Positions 5,099-54,924 of a stretch of DNA of 64,000 nt are shown here, piece after piece (position 1 is the stretch's first letter; the number at the start of each line of letters is the position of its first letter). Location: contig JACEFZ010024497.1 of assembly GCA_014155875.1 (NCBI GenBank), forward strand, positions 1,568,501 to 1,632,500. The letters are read 5' to 3'. Made by a program: the position numbers and the translations under genes. The stretch comes from Cepaea nemoralis (taxonomy: Eukaryota > Mollusca > Gastropoda > Stylommatophora > Helicidae). Below the pieces are notes generated by a model. It worked only from the letters and a program-made list of their open reading frames with translations, had not been told where the DNA came from and searched no databases.

Positions 5099-5347
5099 TG
5101 CTCCAGGAACTTGGTCTCTCTTGTCCCATCTAATGTATTGAGGGATCACTCGGTCCTCCGATGTTACTATGACGACTGTGGAGCGGATGTTGTTTTTTCC
5201 GATGATCCTCTCGGCACTGGTGATCTTGAGTTTCTTGTTCTCCCTTGTCAGCATCGAACTCACAACCTCCGCATGACTCTCCCATGACCAGCATGGGGAA
5301 GGTACTGTCTATAAGTACGGCGCGCTAACCGATTGTGCCACTGGAGC
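5099..5347 (-). pseudogene. tRNA-Ile(UAU) pseudogene with ~140-bp insertion
   Basis: The copy has the same 5' half, intron and anticodon arm as the copies at 6211, 8794 and 13820. About 140 bp of foreign sequence separates the acceptor 3' strand (tgctccagg, 5099-5107) from the T loop (tcgaactcac near 5250). The T stem cannot form, so this copy is dead. Confidence 0.85.
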
Positions 5348-5387
5348 TCCACGACCAGCAGGTCCTCCGTGACGATTTCATTCATTT

Positions 5388-6210: not shown

Positions 6211-6319
6211 TGCTCCAGGTGAGGATCGAACTCACAACCTCCGCATGACTCTCCCATGACCAGCATGGGGAAGGTACTGTCTATAAGTACGGCGCGCTAA
6301 CCGATTGTGCCACTGGAGC
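6211..6319 (-). tRNA. tRNA-Ile(UAU), intron-containing
   Basis: Read on the - strand it folds as a tRNA: acceptor GCTCCAG/CTGGAGC with discriminator A, D arm GCAC-AATCGGTTA-GCGC (one A-C mismatch), anticodon stem CCGTA/TGCGG, loop CTTATAA after removal of a 35-nt intron, anticodon TAT, and T arm GTGAG-TTCGATC-CTCAC. The intron sits after position 37 and holds a CCCATG...CATGGG type hairpin, as is usual for eukaryotic tRNA-Ile(UAU). A T-run terminator lies just 3' (the A-run at 6196-6204 on the + strand). It decodes AUA codons. One mismatch in the D stem leaves some doubt about function. Confidence 0.9.
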
Positions 6320-8793: not shown

Positions 8794-8902
8794 TGCTCCA
8801 GGTGAGGATCGAACTCACAACCTCCGCATAACTCTCCCATGACCATCATGGGGAAGGTACTGTCTATAAGTACGGCGCGCTAACCGATTGTGCCACTGGA
8901 GC
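8794..8902 (-). tRNA. tRNA-Ile(UAU), intron-containing
   Basis: It is near-identical to the 6211 copy over 109 bp. Acceptor, anticodon (TAT) and T arm are intact. It has the same 35-nt intron with two substitutions, and an A-run just left (8778-8788) gives a Pol III T-terminator. It shares the A-C mismatch in the D stem. Confidence 0.9.
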
Positions 8903-9228: not shown

Positions 9229-12200
9229 CTACGATCCATGGCGGTGGCGAGTGTGGCTGGTAAGGCCAATTCTTGCTGCAAATGTTTGCCCACAGTAGGT
9301 GCATGTGAAAACATGGTCATTTCCACCATTTTGCACCATCTTACGTCTCTCACGCTCTGTGTGTGCTTTATCTGCAATCATTTTCTCCTTTGTCTTTATT
9401 CCATTTCTGATAGTTGCCCTCCATGCAACACGTTCAGCGGCGACGTGCTCCCATTGTGCATTATCAATGCCTGTATCAATCATGTCCCGCTTACACACAT
9501 CTTTGTATCGTAGTAGAGGCCGACCCTGAGATCTCCTACCCGTCTGTAATTCACCAAAAAAGATGTCCTTTGGTATTCTACCATCATCCATCCTCCTAAC
9601 GTGTCCTATCCATCTAAGTCTACGAAGACTGAGCATGGAATACACCGTCACACAACCTGATCTTTCCAATACTTCAGTATTTGTGATTTTGTCTTGCCAC
9701 TTAATACCAAGTATTCTTCGCAGACACCGCATATGAAAGCTGTTTAAACGTTTCTCTTGGCGTGAGTAAGTTGTCCAGGTTTCACTGCCATAAAGAAGAG
9801 TACTAAGGACACAGGCTTGGTAGACGAGGACTTTTGTTTTGGCAGTAAGCTTCCTGTTCTCCCAGACTCTTTTTGCTAACATGTTCATTGTTGTTGCTGC
9901 CTTGCCAATCCTGATGTTGATTTCCTGATCGAGGGATAATTTGCTATTTACCTCTGATCCAAGATATGTAAAATGGTCTACTATCTCCAGTTCGGCGTCG
10001 TCAATAAAGATTGATGGTACACCATGTGCACCTTGTGACATAATCTGTGTCTTCTTTTTGTTAATTGTTAAACCAAATTCAGAACAAGCATTGGAGAATG
10101 CAGATAGTAGATGTTGTAATTCTTCCTCAGAGTGGGTCGTAATCGCAGCATCATCCGCAAAAAGCAACTCTCTGATTAGTACCCTGCTAATTTTGGTCTT
10201 GGCCTTCAATCTCTGAGCATTATAGAGGCCACCATCTGAGCGTGAGTGAATGTATATACCGTCATCCTGATCACGAAAGGCATATTTCAGTAGAAGTGAA
10301 AAGTATATCCCAAAGAGGGTGGGGGCTAGTACACAACCTTGCTTAACTCCACTCTTGATTTCAAACTCTTCTGAAGTTGAGCCATCAAACTTGATTATAC
10401 CCTTCATGCCTGTGTGGAACGATTCCACAATGGACAGAAGAGTTGGTGGACAGCCAATCTTCTTTAGTGCTTTGAACAGACCCTCACGACTGACCAAATC
10501 GAATGCCTTTGTGAGGTCGATGAAGGCAATAAACAGTGGCTGATTTTGTTCCCGGCATTTTTCTTGCATCTGTCGCAATGAGAATATCATATCAATGGTA
10601 GACCGGTTCTGACGGAAGCCGCACTGTGATTCGGGGTAGACTTGATCTCCCAGGACTTGAAGTCTGCGCAGGACAATTCTGGCAAATACTTTCCCAACAA
10701 TACACAGAAGTGAGATACCCCTATAGTTGTTGCAGTCGCTCCGATCTCCCTTGTTCTTGTACAGCGTTATGATGTTTGAATCTTTGAAATCCTGTGGGAC
10801 TTGTCCTTCTCGCCAGCATAGCTCTATTAGCTGGTGGATCTGTAGAGCGAGGGTGTCTTGCCCACTCCTGATCACCTCTATTGGAATCCCATCCTTACCT
10901 GGAGCCTTGCCAGATGCAAGCTCATTTATAGCACACTTAACTTCTGTTATAGTGGGAAGTGTGTCCAGGTGGTCAAGAGTTGGCAGGGCCTCTATGGCGT
11001 TGAGGGCATCATCCGCCAGCTTGGTCTCACTTGAGTAAAGCTCTAAATAGTGCTCGACCCATCTATCCATCTGCTGTTTCTTATCAGTGATGATTTCTCC
11101 AGTCAAGGTTTTCAGCGGTGCACTTCTTTTGATCATTGGACCACAGGCTTTCTTTATCCCTTCATACATGCTTCTGATGTTTCCCTTATCACTTGCGATT
11201 TGAATGGACTCACATAACTTGATCCAATAGTCATTCGCACACTGCCTGGCAGCCTTTTGTACATCCTTCCTCGCTTGCTTCAGCTCACTCAGAGTGTTAC
11301 GCGTTGGTCTTTCCTTGTTTCTTAAGAGAGCTATCTTCTTTTTATCAATCAAGGGCTGCAGTATCTGGCTGTTTGCCGCAAACCAGTCCTGCCTCTTATG
11401 ATCCACAGTGCCGTAAACCCCTACCGCTGTTTTATAAATAGTTTCCTTAAGTTTACTCCATTTATCATTTACTATACAATTTTCTGATGTATCATTGAAA
11501 GCGTCCTCAAGTTGCTGTTGAAATTCAAAGCACTTTCCAGGATCGTGAGTGTTAATAATATTAATCCTGGGGCTAGACTTGTGTTTAGCTGTGTAGATTC
11601 TCTTTGGTCTCAGTCTAACCCTTGCAACAACCAAAGAATGATCTGTATCACAGTCAGCACTGTGGTAACTTCGAGTTAATGATGTATGGTTCAGATGTTG
11701 TCTCCGTGTGATAATGAAGTCCAGCTGATGCCAATGGCCGGATCGTGGATGTTTCCATGTGACCTTATGCATCTCTTTTGTTTTAAAAAAGGAGTTTGTA
11801 ATACATAGGTCATTTCTAGTGCAATGCTCCAGCAGCCTTTGCCCATTATCATTCATGCGACCGATGTTGTATTTTCCAAGGCACACTGGCCATGAACTCG
11901 AGTCCTTGCCCACACGAGCATTGAAATCACCGAGCATATAAATGTAGTCGGATTTTGGAACTGCCTTGATCGCAGAGTCTAGCTGCTCATAGAACGTATC
12001 TTTCACATCATCAGAGGAAGTGAGTGTCGGTGCATATGCAGTGAGAATGGTGGCAAATCCACAAGAGGTTGCCAAGCGCAGTGATAATAATCTTTCATTA
12101 CCTCCAGCTGGGATATCAATCATTCCCAGTAGCGAATTCTTCACTGCAAAGCCCACACCGTGTTGCCTTTTTTCTGCCTGCCCTCTTCCCTTCCAAAAAA

Positions 12201-12366
12201 AGGTGTAATTGTTTTCCCTGAGTGACCCTTCCTCAGCGAGGCGAGTCTCCTGCAGGCCAGCAATATCAATGTTAAGACGATTGAGTTCAGCATCAATCAC
12301 AGCCGTTTTTCTAACATCGTCAATATTTGTCAAGTCAGTGGAAAATCCTGGACACATGGTTCTCAC
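9229..12366 (-). CDS. LINE ORF2: apurinic-type endonuclease + reverse transcriptase + C2H2 finger
   Basis: There are 1045 uninterrupted codons from the first marked start (a GTG in TWNVRTM). The frame stays open upstream to about 12450, and the endonuclease N-terminus LATWNVRTM lies across the start, so the true beginning is upstream or supplied by another start. Endonuclease landmarks: LQETR (38-42), GDFNARVG (146-153), CDTDHSLV (239-246). RT landmarks: NYRGISLL (547-554), CGFRQNRSTIDMIF (582-595), FIDLTKAFD (615-623), GVKQGCVLAPTLFG (673-686), catalytic FADD (736-739). The C-terminal finger has C1022, C1025 and H1038/H1043. The endonuclease nicks target DNA and RT primes there. With all motifs intact and a perfect target-site duplication, recent mobility is plausible. 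Confidence 0.93.
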   Translation of the reverse strand: MRTMCPGFSTDLTNIDDVRKTAVIDAELNRLNIDIAGLQETRLAEEGSLRENNYTFFWKGRGQAEKRQHGVGFAVKNSLLGMIDIPAGGNERLLSLRLATSCGFATILTAYAPTLTSSDDVKDTFYEQLDSAIKAVPKSDYIYMLGDFNARVGKDSSSWPVCLGKYNIGRMNDNGQRLLEHCTRNDLCITNSFFKTKEMHKVTWKHPRSGHWHQLDFIITRRQHLNHTSLTRSYHSADCDTDHSLVVARVRLRPKRIYTAKHKSSPRINIINTHDPGKCFEFQQQLEDAFNDTSENCIVNDKWSKLKETIYKTAVGVYGTVDHKRQDWFAANSQILQPLIDKKKIALLRNKERPTRNTLSELKQARKDVQKAARQCANDYWIKLCESIQIASDKGNIRSMYEGIKKACGPMIKRSAPLKTLTGEIITDKKQQMDRWVEHYLELYSSETKLADDALNAIEALPTLDHLDTLPTITEVKCAINELASGKAPGKDGIPIEVIRSGQDTLALQIHQLIELCWREGQVPQDFKDSNIITLYKNKGDRSDCNNYRGISLLCIVGKVFARIVLRRLQVLGDQVYPESQCGFRQNRSTIDMIFSLRQMQEKCREQNQPLFIAFIDLTKAFDLVSREGLFKALKKIGCPPTLLSIVESFHTGMKGIIKFDGSTSEEFEIKSGVKQGCVLAPTLFGIYFSLLLKYAFRDQDDGIYIHSRSDGGLYNAQRLKAKTKISRVLIRELLFADDAAITTHSEEELQHLLSAFSNACSEFGLTINKKKTQIMSQGAHGVPSIFIDDAELEIVDHFTYLGSEVNSKLSLDQEINIRIGKAATTMNMLAKRVWENRKLTAKTKVLVYQACVLSTLLYGSETWTTYSRQEKRLNSFHMRCLRRILGIKWQDKITNTEVLERSGCVTVYSMLSLRRLRWIGHVRRMDDGRIPKDIFFGELQTGRRSQGRPLLRYKDVCKRDMIDTGIDNAQWEHVAAERVAWRATIRNGIKTKEKMIADKAHTERERRKMVQNGGNDHVFTCTYCGQTFAARIGLTSHTRHRHGS

Positions 12367-12439
12367 GTTCCAGGTTGCAAGCCGTAGCTTGAGGTTTCTA
12401 TTATTCTTTTTATTAGTACCTGGTGCATTGGTTTTACAG

Positions 12440-13107
12440 CCTGCGATTCAGATTTTGTCCTAGCCCCAAGCACCCATTGAAGCAGGCAGGCTGTGGCGGA
12501 TCAGCACCCAATTGGCCGGGGGCTGCCCAGCTTGAGGCGGGCGGTAGCTGATCAGTGACACCTGTAGGTGTCTCCCACCGTCAGAGGCAACGCGTGGCGC
12601 CCCATGTCTACGCCAACTGACAAGGACTTATAACCCGTAACAGTTGCCTCTCGCTTTGATTCCGAGACCGGTTAAGACCAGGGATGGAGTTATTGCCTCT
12701 CCATAGCACAAAGCCTGGGCTAAAATAAAGAAACCATGTGTTGCCCATGCAGCATGATCCCTCTCTCGGCCTGCCTAGTTCACTCCAGAGGAAAGTTAAC
12801 ACCTATACATCTGGAACAAGACAAGCTGCAGAAGCTGCCGGATCAGCAAAGCAATGCTCTAACTGTCCGCCTGTCGGAGCTTCGATCCTAGACCAGCTGC
12901 CAACCAAGGCTTAGGGCCTGGTCTGCCCTGCCATGACTTATTTTGTCTTTGGGTTGCATTTCCTCGCACCAGGATAAGGCTAGTACCCTCCCAATTGCGC
13001 TCTTCCGCCCGAAGCCGTTGGCACAATGTTGGGTGTCGGGTTTGGTGAGCGCCGCCCAACATTCGGCGCTGACAGAAAGCATGTAGTACCGTCTACTGTC
13101 AGACTAC
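12440..13107 (-). other. 5' UTR of the full-length LINE
   Basis: No ORF is supported. About 430 bp of it (13107 to about 12671) is closely matched at 25226-25646 in the deleted derivative, including cggtactac, the ttggcaac block and gggatggag. An internal Pol II promoter is expected in such UTRs but no motif is diagnostic. Confidence 0.75.
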
Positions 13108-13819: not shown

Positions 13820-13928
13820 TGCTCCAGGTGAGGATCGAACTCACAACCTCCGCATGACTCTCCCATGACCAGCATGGGGAAGGTACTGTCTATAAGTACG
13901 GCGCGCTAACCGATTGTGCCACTGGAGC
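13820..13928 (-). tRNA. tRNA-Ile(UAU), intron-containing, separate locus
   Basis: The 109-bp gene has the same arms, 35-nt intron and TAT anticodon as the copies at 6211 and 8794, and a trailer TCCCAATTTTTT on the - strand. Its flanks are unlike the segmental array, apart from the trailer and about 5 leader bases. Confidence 0.9.
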
Positions 13929-18633: not shown

Positions 18634-18699
18634 AAAGGTGCATGAAGAAGTATTTAGACTGCCACACTTCATACCACAGGTATGTTGGTTACAAAAGTG

Positions 18700-19190
18700 T
18701 CCCATAGGCATGAAATGGAATATTGCTTGGCTAGCAAATCCATTACGTGGAAAGTCCGAATCGACAGCTCACTGTGTGGGCTTCATAAAATGTGGAAAAA
18801 GTGTCATAGTGGCACGAAATGGAATATTGCTTGGATAGCAAATCTATTACGTGGAAAGTCCAAATTGAAAGCTCACTGTGTGGGCTTCATAAAAGGTGGG
18901 AAAAGTGTCCTGGTGGCACGAAATGGAATATTGCTTAGATAGCAAATCCATTACGTGGAAAGTCCAAATTGAAAGCTCACTATGTGGGTGTCATGAAAGG
19001 TGGAAAAAGTGTCCTGGTGGCATGAAATGGAATATTGCTTGGATAGCAAATCCATTACGTGGAAAGTCTGAATTGAAAGCTCACTGTCTGGGCTTCATAA
19101 AAGGTGGAAATAGTGTCCTAGTGGCACGAAATGGAATATTGCTTGGATACCAAATCCATTACATGGAAAGTCCGAATCGAAAGCTCACTG
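18700..19190 (+). repeat. Tandem ~100-bp repeats in LINE A copy 2 3' UTR (about 5-6 units)
   Basis: Same unit as at 2610-2885, with spacing of 101-106 bp; the first and last units are more diverged. Confidence 0.85.
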
Positions 19191-19639
19191 TGTGGATGTC
19201 ATCTGCAGACTACATTCTTCTGGTTTCCGGAGGAACAGCCTATGGTAAACGGAAGGCCCAATATACGGAAGTGAGGCTAAGCAGCCATGTGCAGGATGTG
19301 ACGATTCCTTGGGTGAGCCCAGTACCAGAGCGCTATGTGTCGCTTCTGTAATTATGGAAGCCTCCTTAGATGGCGGGGAATGCCCATGATCTGCCTCTGC
19401 CTTCCCTTGAGGGCTGACCAGGATGTCTTTGGCTGTTCTAAATAGACCAGCTGGGATGGGGGATAACACCACAACGTTGAGAGTCAAACGTCCTAAGAAA
19501 CCCCACGGGAAGGTTAACCCGGTCAACAAATGCCCACAGAAGTCGGATGTGTCGGCCTAATGGCGCAAGAACGCAGCTCTGCTGTAAACAGGCACAGCGC
19601 AATCACGTCCACAAAAACTCTGGAATAACGCAGAAGAAG

Positions 19640-26417: not shown

Positions 26418-26529
26418 ATGAGTTGGTGGGACACCTCAGGAATTACCAGCCTTGCCTCACAAGCTTTGAAGAATGCGCAGAAGAAGATTGATAAAGTCCT
26501 GGACATTGATGAGAGTGCTAAGCAGAAAG
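26418..26529 (+). CDS. TMF1: TMF1 exon 1 (N-terminus)
   Basis: It encodes the first 37 residues plus one base of the next codon. An in-frame TGA at 26412-26414, with a single AAC codon before the ATG, fixes the start. The sequence starts MSWWDTSGITSLASQALKNA and continues through KKIDKVLDID. This matches the short conserved N-terminus of TMF1/ARA160 golgins, which in vertebrates also starts MSW and has an SFAKQAL..AQK.IDRVLDI pattern. The donor aag/gtgagc is at 26530. TMF1 is a peripheral Golgi coiled-coil tether that binds Rab6 through its C-terminus and, in mammals, acts in Elongin-C-linked degradation of STAT3. The exon ends in phase 1, which the acceptor at 29953 completes as Gly38. Confidence 0.92.
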
Positions 26530-27216
26530 GTGAGCTTAGAACAGTGTATCATGTATGTAGATGTGTTCCCTTCAGACTTCTGTTACCAAAGTGTGGTTGT
26601 TATTATTGTTATCATTATATTTATTGACCTTATAAGATGTTGATCTTGGTCTGATTAATGAGAACCTTGTCTGTATGTGAGGATGGTTGGTTTGGTGGAT
26701 GGGTTTGGGTGTACATGTGTGCTATATGTTAAGTGTTCAATCTACAATATTGCAAGATTTAAGTGTCCTTGATATTACAGGCCAAAGATCGGCAAAAGAA
26801 AAATGGGGAAAATGTACATTCATTGTGTATCTTTTCATCCCTATCATAACAATTATTCTCCCCAGAAAATGGCAGATTAATTATTATGCGAAATATAAAT
26901 TCTCTTATACCAAAGTTGCTGTCACCAGTCAAAGCATAAGTTATAAATGAGGAAAAAAAACGATGTAATAATAAATTAAGTCTTAAAAGCTCTGAAAACA
27001 TGCATAAAGAAAGCAGAAAACTGACCTTCATTTAATTTCAGTAACTACCTAGCATCCTTAGGCCAGGCAAAAATTAGAAAATCATGTGTGCATGTATGTG
27101 CTCATTAACAATCTCTTGGCATTTGGTAATCGTACAGAGTAAGTAAATGACCCCTTTACACACCTTATGGCACGTTGGGCATTTTATGCAAGACAGTTTT
27201 TAATAGACCAGTCGGC
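26530..27216. other. TMF1 intron 1, proximal part
   Basis: AT-rich intronic sequence; no repeat family or ORF is recognised. Intron 1 as a whole spans 26530-29952. Confidence 0.6.
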
Positions 27217-28672
27217 ACTTAGTGGTGACGTGGTCAGTATCAGGTTGACTACTTTACCTCCCAAAACTTAGTGGGTGACGTGGTCAGTATCAGGTTGGCT
27301 GCTTTACCTCCCAAAACTTAGTGGGTGACGTGACGTGATCAGTATCAGGTTGACCGCTGTACCTACCAAAAACTTAGTGGGTGACATGGTCAGTATCAGG
27401 TTGACCGCTGTACCTACCAAAACTTAGTGGGTGACATGGTCAGTTTCAGGTTGACCGCTGTACCTACCAAAACTTAGTGGGTGACATGGTCAGTATCAGG
27501 TTGACTGCTGTACCTCCCAAAACTTAGTGGGTGACGTGGTCAGTATCAGGTTGACTGCTTTACCTCCCAAAACTTAGTGGGTGACGTGATCAGTATCAGG
27601 TTGGCTGCTTTACCTCCAAAAACTTAGTGGGTGACGTGATCAGTATCAGGTTGGCTGCTTTACCTCCCAAAACTTAGTGGGTGACGTGATCAGTATCAGG
27701 TTGACTGCTTTACCTCCCAAAACTTAGTGGGTGATGTGATCAGTATCAGGTTGAATGCTTTACCTCCCAAAACTTAGTGGGTCACTTGGTCAGTATCAGG
27801 TTGACTGCTGTACCTCCCAAAACTTAGTGGGTCACTTGGTCAGTATCAGGTTGACTGCTTTACCTCCCAAAACTTAGTGGGTGACGTGATCAGTATCAGG
27901 TTGGCTGCTTTACCTCCCAAAACTTAGTGGGTCACTTGGTCAGTATCAGGTTGACTGCTGTACCTCCCAAAACTTAGTGGGTCACATGGTCAGTATCAGG
28001 TTGGCTGCTTTACCTCCCAAAACTTAGTGGGTGACGTGATCAGTATCAGGTTGGCTGCTTTACCTCCCAAAACTTAGTGGGTGACGTGATCAGTATCAGG
28101 TTGACTGCCTTACCTCCCAAAACTTAGTGGGTCACATGGTCAGTATCAGGTTGACTGCTTTACCTCCCAAAACTTAGTGGGTGATGTGATCAGTATCAGG
28201 TTGGCTGCTTTACCTCCCAAAACTTCAGTGGGTCACTTGGTCAGTATCAGGTTGACTGCTGTACCTCCCAAAACTTAGTGGGTGACGTGATCAGTATCAG
28301 GTTGACTGCTTTACCTCCCAAAACTTAGTGGGTGACGTGATCAGTATCAGGTTGACTGCTGTACCTCCCAAAACTTAGTGAGTGACGTGGTCAGTATCAG
28401 ATTGACTGCTGTACCTCCCAAAACTTAGTGGGTGACGTGGTCAGTATCAGGTTGACTGCTTTACCTCCCAAAACTTAGTGGGTGACGTGGTCAGTATCAG
28501 GTTGGCTGCTTTACCTCCCAAAACTTAGTGGGTGACGTGGTCAGTATCAGGTTGGCTGCTGTACCTCCCAAAACTTAGTGAGTGACGTGGTCAGTATCAG
28601 GTCGACTGCTGTACCTCCCAAAACTTAGTGGGTGACGTGATCAGTATCAGGTTGACTGCTTTACCTCCCAAA
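27217..28672 (+). repeat. 50-bp satellite, about 29 copies
   Basis: The unit is cttagtgggtgacgtggtca + gtatcaggttgactgctt + tacctcccaaaa. Spacing is 50 bp almost throughout. Variants g/a at gtggtc/gtgatc, gtgac/gtcac and ctgctt/ctgctg recur in a mosaic, as after unequal exchange. It abuts a SINE-4 head (28676-28806) whose tail it resembles. Confidence 0.97.
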
Positions 28673-28675
28673 ACA

Positions 28676-28808
28676 TGTCCTTGTACCCATGTTTGGCCGG
28701 GTCACCCTAGGAGCCCAGATCAGTTTTTAAAATTCACCTTGATGCGGATTCGATCCCATTACTACTTGGCCAGTAGGTAGCATCTAGCCACTACGCTACC
28801 ATGGCTAC
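28676..28808 (-). mobile_element. SINE-4 head, continuous with the satellite
   Basis: On the - strand: a tRNA-like head (AGCGTAGTGGCTAGATGCTA, then GGGATCGAATCC as B box), then GCATCAAGGTGAATTTTAAA and GGTACAAGGACATGTTTTGG, running directly into the satellite. The copy at 54570-54755 has the same order: ccccactgatgcagatttta, ggtaccaggaaatgttctgg. Confidence 0.8.
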
Positions 28809-28809
28809 C

Positions 28810-29560
28810 TATCTTAAAGAGTAGCCTTTGTAATTCACTGTATTGGCAAAATTCATTATTAGAAAGAATGAAAAAAACTTGATTACAACAGAATATCTAT
28901 AGTAGGAGTATGTGCTGAAAAGAGATAGCAGACTTGGCCCTAAAATACTCTGCTGAAATCCAGAATATTTCTAACATATTTGCCAAATGGTGCTTGTCCA
29001 GGATGTTTCAGATCTCAAGGCAGCTCTGCTAGCAGGCTGTGAGGCAAGGAATGTCTTGTTTGTAACCAAACAAGTTGCCACTCTCACAAGTTTCTGAGGT
29101 GAAAAATCTGCCCTGACTACTCTCTTCTGGCTCACATGTTATATATGTCCAAGGCAAATCCACTGTGCCGGAAAACACCAGAAACATTTGTATCACTGCA
29201 TATCCTCTCCTGGGTTGCTTCAATGCAAATATACTCCAACAATAAATTTTATAAAAGACTATGCAGAGATTGAAGAATAATTGATTTAAAATGTGAGATA
29301 CTTTATATACCTACTAACATTTCCTAAAACCAAACTAATGTTAAAACATAATTGATTATATTTTGTTAATAATATTTGAAACAAATAGTTTGCACAGTTT
29401 GCTGCCTGATATATTTCACTGCATCTCATCCTGTGCATACTGCAGAATTATATATCAGATGAAGGAATAGATTCATTATTATTTGGCTGAAATACTTAAC
29501 CACGTACAGTCACCAATGCAATTTGAATGTTATAGCAAACGCTCTACATTTGAACAGTTT
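28810..29560. other. TMF1 intron 1, nothing recognised
   Basis: AT-rich intronic sequence without a supported ORF or repeat match. Confidence 0.5.
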
Positions 29561-29790: not shown

Positions 29791-29952
29791 AAATAACAGT
29801 TTCGGTGACTCTGTTCATTAAGCATTTCAGCCAAAATATAACAGTATAATTATGTGTGTTTTTTTGGTAATATAATATAACAATTTTGTTGTCATTTGAA
29901 ATTGTTTAAAATGAATATTTTTATAGTAATTTATACTTCTGATATTCTACAG

Positions 29953-32212
29953 GGTTGCAGTCAAGCAGTAAAACAGTTAAAAAGGAAGATGAAAAAAGTC
30001 AAGGGCAACCAGAAGATGGAGATTTCTGGTCAGGTTGGCTAGGAGCTGGGGGGAAAAAATCAGAAGCTGAAGATGATGCCATAAATTCACCAACATCACA
30101 ATCCTCTTGGAATCTTCCTTGGAGTATGGCGAGCAGCAGTTCTGAAAACATTCTTGGAGCTGGCAGCAGTAATAACACAAAAGATAACACTGAAGTCACT
30201 GAAACATCAGTGAAGAAAGTAGAAGTTTATATCCCTGACAGCAAGGTTAAAACACTTGGCTCATTTCCTCACAGAGAAACAGATTTGGTGTCTTCGCCTA
30301 TTGAAGCTCACGACAATCTTCCAAACCTCTCATCTGAGGCATCCTTTGTCTCTGCTGATGGAGGTTTAGAGGAAACACTTCCTCAACAAACTAATGTATC
30401 TGTGTCTGAGAGTTTCAATGCAGGTTGGCAAGATTTTACAATGGATGAGGATGAAATTGACACACAAGTTGATGGCAGTATACATGTAATGGAAACTAGC
30501 AAAGATAAACATGAATATGACCTCAGTGCAAACAAGGATTTCAGGAATTTCACAAACAATACAATTCAGTCTCCTAATCCTGAAACCACAGACAGAAAGT
30601 TTCAGTTTTCTGATCATCTACTTGATGTAGAGGATGGCACAGACAAAGTTGATCTTGCAGTCAGGGAAACTGAAGAAGATAGCTCTGACAATTTAAGTAG
30701 CAACGTGAATATTCTATGTGTGGATGCTAGTTCAGGCTCAGCCCTGAATGCTGTTGAAGAATGTCTTTCACTTGCGCAAGATGCAGATGTGAATGCTGTT
30801 GAAGAATGTCTTTCACTTGCGCAAGATGCAGATATGAATGATGTTGAAGAATGTCTTTCACTTGCGCAAGATGCAGATGTGAACTCTAATGATGTTGATG
30901 TGCAGAATTTGCTGCAGCAACTCCAGCCTATGCAGACTGATAGACCTCAATGTGCAGACAGTGTTTCTGTTGATAATTCCAAAGAAGCTGATGGAAATCA
31001 GGATGGAAGTTCATCAGATTATATATCTTCAGGTTATTTCACCACCACTTCTGAAGAGAGAGTCACAGAAATTATGGCTTCCTTTTCATCACCCACATCA
31101 GTGAATGGCATCCACCCACAGGGGTCAAGTACACCAATAGAAGCAACACAAGCTGAGGTCACGGAACCTGCAGATTCTTCATTATTAGTTACAAGCTGTG
31201 ATATGGATTTATCCAATAAAGGTTCAATAGAAGATGAAGCTGTGTCATCATTACCTCTGGTTGAAGCTTCTGAATTTCCAGATACACGGAACGATGCCAA
31301 AGCTGTAGTTCAATATGCAGTTGAGGATGTAGAAAATACAGAATCTGTTAAACATGCAGTTGAGGATGCAGAAAATACAGAATCTGTATTACCAGAACTC
31401 ATGGTGAACTCAGACTGTCAAAAGTCTCAGTCAGACTTCATGCAGGACTATGTGAACATCAGCAGTGTCAGTGATACTGCTCAAACTAGTTCCTTCGATG
31501 GCAGCGCCAGTCTCTCAGATGAACTCCATACAAGCACTGAGCTGGAGGTAGCAACATCCCGAACCAGCAGTGATCTTGACCTGCCTGGTGGTGGCAGAAA
31601 TAGCAGTACAGGCTCATCAGATACAAGTAAATTTGACAGCAGTGTTGATACAATAGTTGATCGATCAATACAGGACAGCCAGAGCGATCTTGATTTGATG
31701 GAAAAGGAACCTCCTTTCTTCCTCTTTGGTGATAGTCACACAGCAGGCAGTGAATTTGATAATCCTGAAGACATTCACTCAGGACAGCTTAATGACAGCT
31801 CACAGTCCTTAAGTTCTTCATATGTCAAATGTATGATTGAGGAAGCAATGGAGGACTTAAGTAAGATAGAAGATTCAGGAAGTGACAACCACTCCAGTGG
31901 TGAAAAGTCAGAAAGTTCAAAGATAGATTCAGAATTGGAAAAGAGTGTTTATAGTGGTCATGAGTCCAGTGACGAGATTGAAACTACAACATCCTCTGAC
32001 ATAGAAATAATCTCTGCGCCAACTCCCAATGGAGACAATAAGTATCATATTCCATTTGATCTTCTCACCATTGAAAATAGCCCTGCAAAGAACAGGAAGG
32101 GACCACGGCCATCACCGATCTGACAGCCAGTCTAGTTCCAGTGCACACAGCAAGGCTGGAGAGATGGACCGCATGAGCCCAGAGCGAGGAGGGGCATCAT
32201 GGAGAGATGATG
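29953..32212 (+). CDS. TMF1: TMF1 exon 2 (acidic, low-complexity region), with a frameshift
   Basis: The acceptor ctacag at 29947-29952 completes Gly38. About 720 codons follow, then the frame stops at 32121-32123. One frame over, the sequence continues as RSDSQSSSSAHSKAGEMDRM to the donor gatg/gtaagt at 32213, which fits the phase of exon 3. So the exon most likely reads through, with one extra base between about 32085 and 32115 (the aaggaagggacc stretch). The segment is Ser/Asp/Glu-rich, predicted disordered, with a DFWSGWLG motif at residues 61-68, like the aromatic motif near the N-terminus of TMF golgins. It contains a 15-residue triplication and a 13-residue duplication. Large acidic N-terminal regions are usual in TMF1. 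A sequencing or assembly indel is more likely than loss of function. Confidence 0.9.
30747..30881 (+). repeat. 45-bp coding minisatellite, three copies, in TMF1 exon 2
   Basis: Units at 30747, 30792 and 30837 encode NAVEECLSLAQDADV three times. The changes are V to M at the end of unit 2 and A to D in unit 3. The frame is preserved. Confidence 0.97.
31317..31394 (+). repeat. 39-bp coding duplication in TMF1 exon 2
   Basis: Two units (31317-31355 and 31356-31394) encode AVEDVENTESVKH and AVEDAENTESVLP. Confidence 0.93.
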
Positions 32213-35934: not shown

Positions 35935-36240
35935 CATGTACATAGAACTCGTTACCTGGGATGGAATCTGTATAGAGGAAACAAACCTGTCACAAGTGCA
36001 TTCCAAAGTCTGACCTTTGAGGTGCAAAACTAGGTTCCCCTTGAAGGAGGAATGACATAGAAGAAGAAACAAAATACAACAAAACAGACAGATTACTTGA
36101 TATGAAAATAAATGCCCAGGTGAAACGACAGTAGCCAGAACAAGTAAGTGAAATGTAAAGAACCCTTTGACTTGCCTTGAGGCATAGTGGGTATAATATG
36201 GTGTTAGCCCCATATTTGTATGAATCAAATGCCCCCCCCC
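35935..36240. other. Intronic sequence with C-run
   Basis: No feature apart from the poly-C run at 36231-36244, which abuts SINE-1. Confidence 0.5.
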
Positions 36241-36244
36241 CCCC

Positions 36245-36388
36245 TCCCCAGGTTAACCCAGTCAACAAATGCCCGCAGAAGTAGGATGTGTTGGCCTAAC
36301 GGCGCAAGAACGCAGCTCTGCTGTAAACAGGCACAGCAGCGCAATCACGTTTGAAAAAAGTCTCTGGATGAATGCAGAAGAAGAAGAA
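36245..36388 (+). mobile_element. SINE-1 copy, + orientation
   Basis: It starts at ccaggttaacccagtcaaca after a C-run and ends in GAAGAAGAAGAA. The CCCGGG start is replaced by the C-run. The internal change cacagcagcgc is a 3-bp insertion. Confidence 0.85.
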
Positions 36389-36389
36389 A

Positions 36390-36943
36390 TGGCACCCAAT
36401 AGGTGATCTGTTTAGTATTACTTGCTGGTATCCAGCTTAAGCTGAATTGATTGAGAGCTCAGGTCCAGTTAAACAGTCTGTCTCAATAGCAAGCAAGCAA
36501 CAAGGCTGGTTTGAATAAAGATCCTGTCATTACTGGGAATTGTGTGTTGGTAAGCAAGCACACTAAAACTATGCCATCAGGACTTGTAGTGGCTGTGTAA
36601 AACATAGTAAATTTAAATTTCATTTTTTAAAAATAATACAGTTTCATTTCTCCTTCTTTCATTCTTTCTGATCCTGCATGACAGTTTGCTGCATGCTTGA
36701 TCAGTTGTATGTTGCTGGCAATGGATACATTTTTCCGCATCAACCTATAGGTCAGGCCTTGCTCTGTATTGATCAGCCAGCAGTTATGCCTGGTGATGTA
36801 TTCACCTTCAAGTAATCTTTCCTGCAGACACTGTGAAACACTGGTGTTATAGTTTTTGTGCTTAGCACTTATTCTAGTTCTTCAGGATTGTCCTTTAAAG
36901 TTATTCCTGGATGACATTGCTAATGTTTATTTAACTGTTGCAG
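36390..36943. other. TMF1 intron 2, distal part
   Basis: No repeat or ORF is recognised. It ends in a pyrimidine-rich acceptor, aactgttgcag. Confidence 0.5.
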
Positions 36944-38817: not shown

Positions 38818-39808
38818 AGTGGATGACTACCACAGCCTGACATAGACATAACCTATAATGAGGCAAAGAGGTTGATAAAAGCACTTATAGAACCAAATGG
38901 GAATCAGAGCATCCAGGTCACCAGAAGGATGATGCATATTACAAACTCAACCAAAGAGAACAAGTAGCAATCTCAGACTCCGCACAGGACATAACAGGCT
39001 GAAATACCACTTGTTCAATAAACTAAAGATAGGAGATACTGATGAATGTAATTATGGAACTGGTAAAATGACAGCTAAACATTTGCTGCAGGAGTGCCCA
39101 ATATATGCAGAACAGAGAAGGATATTTTGGCCCACACCTGCTTCATTTGAGGACAAGCTGTATGGAGATATCAACAAGCTCAAGTTGACTGCAGCTTACT
39201 TTAACTACATTCAGGTTGACATTTAAAGGTGCATGAAGAAGTATTTAGACTGCCACACTTCATACCACAGGTATGTCGGTTACAAAAGCCTCCCAGAGGC
39301 ATGAAATGGAATATTGCTTGAATAGCAAATCCATTACGTGGAAAGTCTGAATCAAAAGCTCTCTGTGTGGGCTTCATAAAAGGTGGAAAAAGTGTCCTAG
39401 TGGCACGAAATGGAATATTGCTTGGATAGCAAATCCATTACGTGGAAAGTCCGAATCGAAAGCTCACTATGTGGATGACATCTGCAGACTGCATTCTCCT
39501 GGTTTCCGGAAGAACAGCCTATGGTGAATGGAAGGCCTAATATACGGAAGTGAGGCTAAGCAGCCATGTGCAGGACGTGATGATTCCTTGGGTGAGCCCA
39601 GTACCAGAGCGCTGTGTGTTGGCTCTGCAAGTATGGAAGCCTCCTTGGATGGTGGGTCTGTCCCTGCCTTCCCTTGAGGGCTGACCAGGATGTCTTTGGC
39701 TGTTCTGTATGGACCAGCTGGGATGGGGGATAACACCACAACAATGAGAGTCAAACATCCTAAGAAACCCCCGGGAAATGTTAACCCAGTCAACAAATGC
39801 CCGCAGAA
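38818..39808 (+). mobile_element. LINE A copy 3, 5'-truncated
   Basis: It starts inside RNase H (gtggatgactaccacagcct) and keeps the C-terminal C-x-C...H...C block (stop at 39226), two 3' UTR repeat units (39295-39475), the unique UTR and the first 40 bp of the terminal block (to cagaagtca). The GAA tail is missing. Confidence 0.88.
39011..39226 (+). pseudogene. LINE A C-terminal zinc-knuckle fragment
   Basis: It encodes LFNKLKIGDTDECNYGTGKM, AKHLLQECPIYAEQRRIFWP and the terminal FNYIQVDI. It is 90% or more like the copies at 2384-2599 and 18440-18633. One Cys of the cluster is Tyr here. Confidence 0.85.
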
Positions 39809-41289: not shown

Positions 41290-41833
41290 CTATTCCACAT
41301 AGTCACCATGTAAATTCAGTGTAAATTTGTACCATGGCACAAGTTTTTGTAACCCCTCGTCAAGGAATGGCGCCACCAGGGTAATTAGCTAGTTATTGAC
41401 GCCATCCATGAGCTCTGCGGCAGTGTCGAAGCACTGGGTAGCCAGCCAGACCTTCATCTTGCCAAAGAGATGATAATCACTTGGTGCCAAGTGTGGGCTG
41501 TAAGGGGATAGGTTGAAAAATTTCCCACTTAAACTGCTCAAGTAAAGCCTTTGTGCAAGCAGCAGTGTGAGGCCATGCTCTGTCATGCAGGACAATGATG
41601 CCACTGATGAGCATTTCACGCCTTTTGTTTTGGATCAACCGAGGAAGCTTCTTCAGTGTTTCACAACAAACTTCTGATGTTATTGTGGTCCCTGGTGTCA
41701 TAAATTCCATCAACAAAATGCCCTTGCAGTCCCAAATCATTGTAACCATCGTTTTTCGTTGCAAAAATGTTTGCTTGAATTTTCTGGGCTTGTTTGAAGA
41801 ATGCCACTGTTTTGACTGTTCCTTCGTCTCTGC
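41290..41833 (-). pseudogene. mariner transposase, C-terminal half, decayed
   Basis: Cut-and-paste transposase of the mariner group (catalytic D,D34D triad). In - strand order: ETKEQSKQW near 41830, RKFKQTFLQRKTMVTMIWDC with the first Asp, GTTITSEVCCETLKKL, then LHDRAWPHTA with the second Asp, then after a frameshift near 41500 SPYSPHLAPSDYHLFGKMKV with the third Asp. After an in-frame TAG at 41389-41391 comes the terminal KLVPWYKFTLNLHGDYVE with its stop at 41290-41292. The N-terminal DNA-binding part is missing where the 47-bp minisatellite begins. A dead copy with all three catalytic positions still visible. Confidence 0.9.
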
Positions 41834-43032
41834 ATTTTCTATCTTTGGCCTTTGCTTCTAGGTAAATCTCTCACACTGACATTTGCTGTCTTTGGCCTTT
41901 GCTTCTAAATAAATCTCTCACATTGACATTTGCTGTCTTTGGCCTTTCCTTCTAGGTAAATCTCTCATATTGACATTTGCTGTCTTTGGCCTTTGCTTCT
42001 AAATAAATCTCTCACATTGACATTTGCTGTCTTTGGCCTTTGCTTCTAAATAAATCTCTCACAATGACATTTGCTGTCTTTGGCCTTTGCTTCTAGGTAA
42101 ATCTCTCACATTGACATTTGCTGTCTTTGGCCTTTGCTTCTAGGTAAATCTCTCACATTGACATTTGCTGTCTTTGGCCTTTGCTTCTAAATAAATCTCT
42201 CACATTGACATTTGCTGTCTTTGGCCTTTGCTTCTAAATAAATCTCTCACATTGACATTTGCTGTCTTTGGCCTTTGCTTCTAAATAAATCTCTCACAAT
42301 GACATTTTCTATCTTTGGCCTTTCCTTCTAGGTAAATCTCTCACATTGACATTTGCTGTCTTTGGCCTTTGCTTCTAAATAAATCTCTCACATTGACATT
42401 TGCTGTCTTTGGCCTTTGTTTCTAAATAAATCTCTCACATTGACATTTGCTGTCTTTGGCCTTTGCTTCTAAATAAATCTCTCACAATGACATTTTCTAT
42501 CTTTGGCCTTTCCTTCTAGGTAAATCTCTCACATTGACATTTGCTGTCTTTGGCCTTTGCTTCTAAATAAATCTCTCACATTGACATTTGCTGTCTTTGG
42601 CATTTGCTTGTAGATAAATCTCTCACAATGACATTTGCTGTCTTTGGCCTTTGCTTGTAGATAAATCTCTCACAATGACATTTGCTGTCTTTGGCCTTTG
42701 CTTCTAGGTAAATCTCTCACAATGACATTTGCTGTCTTTGGCCTTTGCTTGTAGATAAATCTCTCACAATGACATTTGCTGTCTTTGGCCTTTGCTTGTA
42801 GATAAATCTCTCACAATGACATTTGCTGTCTTTGGCCTTTGCTTGTAGATAAATCTCTCACACTGACATTTGCTGTCTTTGGCCTTTGCTTGTAGATAAA
42901 TCTCTCACAATGACATTTGCTGTCTTTGGCCTTTGCTTGTAGATAAATCTCTCACAATGACATTTGCTGTCTTTGGCCCATGCATCTAGATAAATTACTC
43001 ATGTTGACATTTACTGTCTCTGGCCCATGCTT
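41833..43032 (+). repeat. 47-bp minisatellite, about 25 copies
   Basis: The unit is acatttgctgtctttggcc + tttgcttctaaataaatctc + tcacattg. Subtypes with cttctaaataaa, cttctaggtaaa and cttgtagataaa cluster along the array, the last only in the right third. It starts at the edge of the mariner remnant. Confidence 0.97.
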
Positions 43033-43691: not shown

Positions 43692-44515
43692 TTATTCACA
43701 GTTCCTAAGGCCAAACCCCGTGAAGTTGCCATTTAATATCAAGCAGCACCTCCACTGCTCCAAGTGACTCTCGAGCTTTTCTCCCCTAGTGAACACTGAT
43801 CCTTCGCATGGATCCAGCTCATCCGCTATGGCCTCTCATAAATCTCGCATTTTACGTTAACTGCTTTCTACGCTTTTCTCAGGTCTAGCAAATCCTGGTC
43901 AGCCACTGACACGACCTTGCCAGGCTCGTTTCAAGGCTGAATGTGTATCTTTGAAGCATGTTTGAGAGTTCTAATGTATTTATTGCATGCTGCTTGTGAT
44001 ATTATCAACTTTCTTCCGTTAAGCCTGTACATAATCTCATAATCTGCTGCTGAACTAATGAGCATGGTAGAGTTGTTATGCATAGTAATGATCAAGTGAA
44101 TTTTGACTGTCACTGCTTGTTTTCAGCTGGCTCAAATAGTCGTACAGCGCAAGCTACTAGGTGGCCAGGTAACTCTGATGACATTTTTGCACTTTCCTTT
44201 TTGTTTTTCTCAAATAGCCATGCCTCATTATCTGGTGAAGAACACATTTTGCCCAACACACGTTGCTGCTAGGTTTTAGTGTTTTTGTAATTCTTGTTCA
44301 TACTCGGCCAAATGGGCATCCATTTTAAATACTCGTAAGAGTGATCCAATAAAAATGATTTCAACAACAAAGTAGTGATCAATTTAAAAAATATATAAAT
44401 AAAATGGCGATCCATGAAATATATTCATAAGAATGGAAAATACCTTTATGACTGAAATGGTAATACATCTAAAATGCTAATATGAATGGAATATTTATCA
44501 ATTTAAAACAGCTTT
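43692..44515. other. TMF1 intron 3, nothing recognised
   Basis: No supported ORF or repeat match; AT-rich from 44330. Confidence 0.5.
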
Positions 44516-44516
44516 A

Positions 44517-44705
44517 GGAGCTGTGGTGATGCAGTGATTAGTGTATATACCTGCCAACACAGTGGTTCTGGGTTCATTCTGCAGGAGTGACAAAGTTGTG
44601 TTTTTTCTCCCAGACCAATACAGCTATGGAGATTAATCCATCCTCATTAAAACTGGAACTATTGACTTTTTGGGAAAGAAAAAGTGGTCAGCATAATACT
44701 GGACA
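44517..44705 (+). mobile_element. SINE-4 copy, diverged
   Basis: A tRNA-like head (gtggtgatgcagtgattagtg; B box gttctgggttcattctg) is followed by the tail tttttgggaaagaaaaagtg and gtcagcataatactgga, which resembles the satellite unit read on its - strand. Confidence 0.7.
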
Positions 44706-45240
44706 CATTGTATATCAAACACTTTTTAGTTATTGAAAAAAGGGTTCTCAGGCCTATCACAGATATGTCTTCATTGCATGTAAATGGACTTAATTTATTG
44801 TAAAAATGCCTTTAGGAATATTGATCCATTTAAATACCTATATGAATGAAATAGTGATTAAATTTTTTTTTGAATACCTAAAATGGATAAAATAAGTATT
44901 TATGAATACTGATTATACACACATTTTTTATATTTGTTTTTAATATTTAAAATGATGCATTTGTAAATCTTTATAGCATCTTTAATTTTTTTTAAACTAA
45001 AGCAAAAGAAACCAGTGTGAGGCATTGCTGAGGGTGATTTCTCCATTACTTAATGTTGCTCTTTCTTAAGCCGTTTTGAGTCTTCAAATGACCAGATGTG
45101 TGAATGCTGTTCATAATAGCTTTTACTAATTTTAACCTTCAGTAGAATCAAAATGGGATGTTATAATTGAGACATTGCTGTTTCTGTGATGTTGGTTGTG
45201 TTGCAGTGTATCTACATTTTACCTTTCTTATATAATTGTT
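44706..45240. other. AT-rich intronic stretch
   Basis: Repeated phrases such as aaatgcatttatgaata appear at 44800-45000, but no clear array or gene. Confidence 0.5.
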
Positions 45241-49576: not shown

Positions 49577-49770
49577 GTAATTGGGAACCGTGATAGTACA
49601 GCGGCTAGGATACTTCCCTGCTGGCCTGGTGGTCATATGTTCGAATCTCTATCGAGGAAATGTGTAAACACTTGACTTGGGCTCCCATATTGGCATAGCC
49701 TAAAATGGGTACCAGGAAACAATCTGAGAAATAAAGGAGATCGGCATAATATTGACAACATCACATCAAC
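49577..49770 (+). mobile_element. SINE-4 copy
   Basis: Head aaccgtgatagtacagcggc (A-box region) and B box tgttcgaatctc; body cacttgacttgggctcccat; tail gggtaccaggaaacaatctg and aggagatcggcataatattg. Confidence 0.8.
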
Positions 49771-49856
49771 CATCGGCTGTCCATTAGTCTTCAAAAATGT
49801 CTGGCACCAATTGTAGAACATGCTTCAAGGTGTGAAAAAAGGATCCTTTATAATAC

Positions 49857-49857
<1 letters not shown>

Positions 49858-49927
<70 letters not shown>

Positions 49928-54565: not shown

Positions 54566-54569
54566 ATGA

Positions 54570-54755
54570 GGGGGAGCTGAGGTAGTGCAGTGGCTAGGAC
54601 ACCTGTCTGCTGGTCCAGAGGTCATGTGTTTGAATCCCCACTGATGCAGATTTTAAAAGAATGTACCTGTTTTCTCAGGTTGACCCAGCAGCAAGTTGGT
54701 ACCAGGAAATGTTCTGGCATGCAAAGGCAGCCGGCGTGATAGTGACCACACCCCC
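54570..54755 (+). mobile_element. SINE-4, most complete copy
   Basis: Head gagctgaggtagtgcagtgg and B box gtgtttgaatcccc; then tgatgcagattttaaaagaa, ggtaccaggaaatgttctgg and a tail gcaaaggcagccggcgtgat. Confidence 0.85.
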
Positions 54756-54924
54756 TCGAATGCTGATTGGTCTATACAAAATATGAGTCTTCTTCAAATA
54801 CCCAATATGCCTCGTCCGTGTCAACAGATCTTTTACTTATCTATTACCAAAGACTGCTTTTTTCTGATTGTATGGACATTTTACGCATGTCTTAATGTAA
54901 TATGTACATTCATATTTGTTTTGC

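Follow-up and report, generated by a model that had tools for sequence, protein, structure and literature searches.

A 50-bp piece from the body of a short interspersed element (SINE) of the gastropod Cepaea nemoralis has become an array of 29 tandem units, and both ends of the SINE are still in place around it. The locus lies in a stretch of 64,000 nucleotides, here called the window (assembly GCA_014155875.1, contig JACEFZ010024497.1, positions 1,568,501 to 1,632,500, forward strand). The array, 1.46 kb long, occupies model positions 145-197 of a SINE of ~290. It very probably arose through insertion of the SINE, ageing of the inserted copy, in-place tandem duplication of a piece of its body, and then local growth to 29 units. 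The process is already known from other animals; the window array adds one case, and other copies of the same SINE add independent births.

Table 1. Features of the window and arrays in SINE copies elsewhere in the genome.
Feature	Position or locus	Strand	SINE model	Remarks
SINE 5′ part (Pol III-box head and linker)	28674..28812	-	~6-144	single copy
Presumed boxes of that head	A starts 28798; B finishes 28747	-
Tandem array	27217..28674	-	~145-197	29.0 units x 50 bp, 93% matches (TRF); unit = SINE body
SINE 3′ part, far side of array	27133..27218	-	145-283 with last unit
SINE copy, unexpanded	54569-54859	+	6-296	one unit-equivalent; E 4.5e-64; in training set
SINE copy, unexpanded	49579-49870	+	5-293	E 1.1e-59; in training set
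Degenerate SINE copy, unexpanded	44514-44799	+	7-278	E 3.8e-8
SINE copy interrupted by LINE-like insert	36137-36487	-	76-199; 204-291	E 3.6e-4; E 6.9e-13
TMF1-like first coding exon (presumed)	26418..26520, end approximate	+		translation MSWWDTSGITSLASQALKNAQKKIDKVLDID
Conserved 726-aa open exon	29943..32123	+		one homologue, 68% identity over 87%
Internal array	L035		113-181	period 62-65, 7 units
Internal array	L046		173-223	42 bp x 5
Internal array	L059		162-216	55 bp x ~38
Internal array	L064		209-247	43 bp x 4; placed by profile matches either side
Internal array	L069		160-230	78 bp x 3.8; second insert within
Internal array	L080		~103-131	28 bp x 28; placed by reading; far SINE end not found
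Array from unit query	L054/L055		165-202	34 bp x 17; both SINE ends; contig pair 99.4%, equal unit number
Arrays from unit query	L048 (C17970), L049 (C21426), L050 (C13738)		143-189	47 bp; 62+, 10.7+, 74+ units

The array lies inside the SINE, with both SINE ends kept, because the flanks on its two sides match the SINE profile. Of the 30 rows in this profile, 28 were genome copies and two were window copies, and the array-bearing copy was left out. Head and first unit fall into a single alignment (28812-28623, model 6-197, E 3.7e-52), the last unit and the 3′ part into another (27267-27133, model 145-283, E 3e-25), and each of the remaining 27 units matches singly. The reversed window, taken as a control, gave no profile match at E<=0.05. 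When the sequence strictly beyond the array was compared with the copies at 54.6 kb and 49.6 kb, none of 1000 shuffles reached the score in either case; it did not match the degenerate 44.5-kb copy, for which 970 of 1000 shuffles reached the score. These results uphold part of an earlier, sequence-only reading and correct the rest. The ~29-unit, 50-bp array that it described was recovered (TRF, 29.0 copies), as was the gapless passage on the minus strand from the SINE head into the array, which is bridged by the alignment of head and unit 1. The interval given, 27217..28808, ends ~85 bases too early, since the 3′ third of the SINE continues to 27133. The same 3′ third rules out growth from the SINE tail: the element runs on past the array, so the unit originated in the body.

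The host element is short and interspersed, with defined ends at many loci. Its consensus is ~290 bp long, the 28 genome copies and two window copies align across that length, and each head query returned 379-402 first-look candidates, 40 of which were scored. The heads carry motifs of Pol III A and B boxes, similarly spaced in three window copies with 32-34 bases between them. The window has five such matches, two of them away from these copies, where 20 simulated sequences averaged 0.2. The Rfam tRNA model found no match at E<=10 in any of the three SINE heads, which are either too degenerate for it or have no tRNA origin. The label 'tRNA-derived' thus keeps its tRNA-like box spacing, but, as Rfam finds no tRNA in the heads, the derivation is likely rather than established.

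The proposal that the array unit derives from a SINE segment present singly in other copies was borne out. Against the matching segments of the copies at 54566-54870, 49579-49870 and 44513-44800, the score of the unit consensus was reached by 0, 1 and 0 of 2000 shuffles, respectively. A likeness no better than that of unrelated sequence had been named beforehand as the outcome that would count against a SINE origin, and the origin survived. The array is thus a SINE-derived tandem repeat, its unit held once by other copies and its sequence continuous with the SINE at both ends. The copy at 36137-36487 was considered as a second expanded SINE and rejected; its sequence reads as a copy split by an unrelated insert resembling a LINE fragment, and it holds no tandem array.

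The 29 units comprise 23 distinct sequences with a mean pairwise unit-versus-unit score of 0.92. There are no higher-order repeats in the array, as similarity across lags 1-15 is flat (0.91-0.93). A genome search with three units gave 13 first-look candidates, all of which were scored. Only the window contig and a second contig, C1970, carried the array at high identity, and the others were single-unit SINE copies or arrays with other periods. This search skips very common words, so the absence of the array elsewhere is unproved. Among viral contigs, neither the unit nor the SINE head pattern had a match. With one locus on two contigs, rather than many loci or long heterochromatic arrays, the word 'satellite' does not fit; the array is a locus-specific minisatellite rather than a dispersed satellite. 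Nor does it qualify as a variable-number repeat on the two contigs seen per locus, with unit counts of 29 and 29 here and 17 and 17 at L054/L055.

C1970 is most likely the other haplotype, because it is collinear with the window (99.27% over 9.5 kb) and carries the heads of three SINE copies in window order across ~27 kb. Two of these heads are 100% identical; the third, that of the D copy, is 93% identical, lower than a plain haplotype would give, and C1970 may instead be a recent duplication. Alignment of the whole arrays with MAFFT produced shifted registers and large paired gaps, and a unit-by-unit comparison was therefore preferred. By this measure 22 of the 29 units are identical in order, and all divergence in the others amounts to 2 substitutions and 9 gap bases over 1456; mismatches outside the array number 39 in 8045 aligned bases. 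The array is no artefact of one contig.

Arrays have also been born in other copies of this SINE. Two head queries yielded 38 loci each, 76 in all (217.8 kb, with the window locus and C1970 left out). Three pairs among them (L012/L019, L018/L035 and L079/L080) are each one insertion seen twice, and there are therefore 73 distinct insertions; four further pairs have only other repeats in common. Six of the 76 loci, equally six of the 73 insertions, bear internal arrays, with periods of ~28-78 bp and differing borders (Table 1). Four of these arrays (L035, L046, L059 and L069) passed a test of unit against profile, in which 9 of 142 TRF rows and none of 1420 shuffled units matched. Two of the nine matches are weak (E 0.017-0.023) and belong to an array upstream of the SINE in L016, which was left out of the count. 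Four more arrays run across SINE edges (L023, L042, L073 and L094). At L028, L030 and L044, SINE copies directly adjoin one another, in tandem or partial tandem. The arrays of L054/L055 and L048-L050 came from the unit query and stand outside the head sample; the last three match each other, array and flank, at ~84-94%, and that of L049 runs into 2500 N. The borders and period of the 50-bp array recur in no other array examined.

Two of the duplicate pairs show what a site looks like with one unit and with many. L018 and L035 match at 237 of the 246 bases aligned in the 5′ flank; past the SINE they have ~15 further bases in common and then diverge. L035 bears seven units and L018 one, and the 3′ part of the SINE in L018 has a short gap. 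The 5′ flanks of L079 and L080 agree at 189 of 194 aligned bases, and farther along the two loci share another 1184 bp at 92%; L079 has one unit at the site where L080 holds 28. Three controls with unrelated pairs gave 42-49%. In-place growth is the simple reading of both differences, although it is possible that the one-unit sister lost units. Intermediates such as the earlier reading looked for thus exist as sister loci elsewhere, but an unexpanded sister of the window array was not found.

At the window locus itself, the order of events and the mechanisms of first duplication and growth are what we infer from the state of the array. Divergence from the SINE consensus is 15.6% for the head, 20% for the unit consensus and 19.2% for the 3′ part, and most differences of the units from that consensus are common to them. 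Late expansion of an old copy fits, because the units share most changes and have diverged about as far as both SINE parts. Homogenisation could also give shared changes, so at this array late expansion is unproved. We suggest that one ~290-bp Pol III SINE inserted into the apparent first intron of a TMF1-like gene and would have aged there by mutation before any expansion. A 50-bp piece of its body would then have been duplicated in tandem, probably at the 2-bp GT match seen at the borders, through replication slippage or end joining. Growth to 29 units would have followed by slippage or unequal exchange, with the SINE ends staying put. A target-site duplication was sought by eye at the array-bearing copy, and no convincing pair was seen there.

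Microhomology was read by eye in the six events with both borders visible, and measures 2 bp at the window array, 5 at L035, 4 at L046, 4 at L059, 5 at L064 and 1 at L054. L048-L050, whose far border was unread, were left out, as were L069 with its insert and L080, in which the far end is missing. The mean of 3.5 compares with 0.65 for random breakpoints and with 2.24 when random breakpoints are given equal placement freedom (P 0.004); the 2 bp at the window array is a size that chance often gives. The six events together agree with the slippage models of minisatellite birth cited in the parts of PMC6947457 and PMC3389668 available to us. Against slippage after insertion stand two statements from the available text of PMC3389668: no more than 6% of human TE-derived arrays are explained by short flanking repeats and truncated end units, and arrays are commoner in younger TEs, so that initiation, but not later growth, is linked there to retrotransposition.

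That last suggestion bears on a different history, in which the SINE was already expanded or once duplicated when it moved, either because a multi-unit master retrotransposed or because duplication accompanied insertion. Some SINE families do inherit internal duplications of ~30 nt, according to portions of PMC10702118. This history is nonetheless very improbable here. None of the other scored candidates carries these tandem units at high identity, the periods and borders of the other arrays differ, and the two sister pairs set one unit beside 7 and 28. Moreover, TTTT is present in all 29 units and would tend to stop Pol III. We therefore retain expansion after insertion as the preferred history.

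A claim stronger than that of the sequence-only reading would make the SINE body a privileged hotspot for the seeding of satellites. Seven of eight events cover model 173-181, which has P 0.003 under random placement along the full length of the SINE. However, three of the eight were picked as the window array or for their likeness to it. The five head-sampled events alone give P 0.17, or P 0.58 with placement limited to the body, and all eight with the same limit give P 0.075; thus, a hotspot within the SINE is significant only once array-sampled events are added. L080 (model ~103-131) lies outside the core and is absent from the test. The background points the same way. With arrays counted at a period >=20 and a score >=100 in the 76 loci (the three sister pairs left in), sequence outside the SINE holds 64 arrays in 165,306 bp, or 0.387 per kb. 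Five arrays that lie <=40 bases from a SINE and overlap it by <20 (L015, L016, L075, L082 and L091) were scored as background. On SINE sequence 10 arrays were seen against 9.65 expected from this rate, and internally 6 against 7.4 to 9.65. In the 76-locus sample, SINE sequence is not enriched for arrays, the SINE as a privileged seed is unsupported, and we consider a special hotspot very unlikely. At these loci the SINE is made into arrays no oftener than its flank, so seeding does not follow from the SINE being a mobile element. Finally, that the array is independent DNA beside a later SINE insertion, or a chance likeness, is next to inconceivable even in a genome so rich in arrays without SINE overlap, since SINE alignments span both junctions, each of the 27 units in between aligns to the profile on its own, and the reversed-window and shuffled-unit controls are blank.

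Human Alu-derived minisatellites were reportedly treated by Jurka and Gentles in 2006. The seeding of tandem arrays by SINEs, which the sequence-only reading had called seldom documented step by step, is in fact described, in the text available to us, for Alu minisatellites (PMC3389668) and squamate satellites (PMC10702118). The accessible sections of PMC3389668 include a 17-unit, 52-bp array from AluJo 226-278 that grew in place, and 300 arrays with flanking direct repeats of 5-20 bp assigned to the Haber-Louis model. The window array resembles these Alu minisatellites in having grown in place from a SINE piece; it differs in its unrelated SINE and genome, its body unit, its 29 units and its 2-bp match. 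Squamate sSats, as portrayed in the part of PMC10702118 that we could consult, likewise have units shorter than the SINE (~70-290 nt from its 5′, middle or 3′ parts) and independent origins with differing borders. Unit number is equal at 74% of orthologous loci in two rattlesnakes, as it is at the window array on two contigs. Most sSats retain one extended SINE end, and minor variants retain both, as the window array does. The snake sSat3 is one unit type at up to thousands of loci, mostly subtelomeric, whereas the window array has one locus, in a probable intron (same source and extent). PcH-sat of the limpet Patella caerulea (PMC11121367) is also a tandem repeat from part of a SINE, Nin-SINE. 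Unlike the window array, it has a 179-bp unit, makes up ~10% of the genome and is pericentromeric, and no intact SINE ends flanking it are described in the available portion of that paper.

Intron 1 of a TMF1-like gene is a plausible location for the array, because a TMF1-like N-terminus and a conserved 726-aa exon bracket it. The N-terminus is MSWWDTSGITSLASQALKNAQKKIDKVLDID (M codon near 26418), which presumably resembles that of TMF1. Pfam finds no domain in the 726-aa exon (29943-32123). As far as sequence can tell, there is no sign of a function for the array in the gene. The 726-aa exon has in-frame repeats of its own at 30745-30883 and 31308-31387 (45 bp = 15 aa and 39 bp = 13 aa); aligned with the second contig, it shows a gap of 6 bases at 30882.

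Other repeats share the window. Three nearly identical intron-bearing tRNA genes lie at 6211-6319, 8794-8902 and 13820-13928 (minus strand), each scoring 50.2 bits with the Rfam tRNA model, and there is a related piece at 5247-5387. An intact 1072-aa LINE (9229-12447, minus strand) has one of these genes just downstream and another just upstream, so it may have inserted among clustered tRNA genes or may carry tRNA pieces along with it. Tandem repeats of 103-104 bp at 2619-2897, 18693-19195 and 39284-39474 (2.7, 4.8 and 1.8 units) each lie within a different copy of the same LINE-like repeat, and their flanks match at 88-94% on both sides. A 47-bp array of 25.5 units (41833-43032) adjoins a minus-strand reading frame at 41477-41857 that we presume to resemble a mariner transposase. 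The long hairpin at 53944-54022 matches the mir-511 model on both strands, far below the gathering score, and is probably a short inverted-repeat element.

Most minisatellites are untraceable to a source sequence. Here, a SINE copy with both ends and many unexpanded relatives supplies both the borders and the sequence from which the array started, and before-and-after views of array birth come from sister loci at other places. In effect, the mobile-element origin makes the birth of an array readable rather than causing it. We offer one broader reading tentatively, at slightly less than even chances: that minisatellites arise in this genome with such frequency (the sampled flanks hold 0.387 array loci per kb) that one SINE family displays the whole path. 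The path would lead from single-copy bodies through arrays of ~4-7, 17, 28, 29 and ~38 units, with sisters of one unit beside 7 or 28, to SINE-derived 47-bp arrays whose unit counts run from 62 to at least 74, which have related flanks in three places and may be becoming a true satellite. If so, the SINE copies would constitute hundreds of replicate experiments with a known starting point for the birth, growth and spread of arrays.
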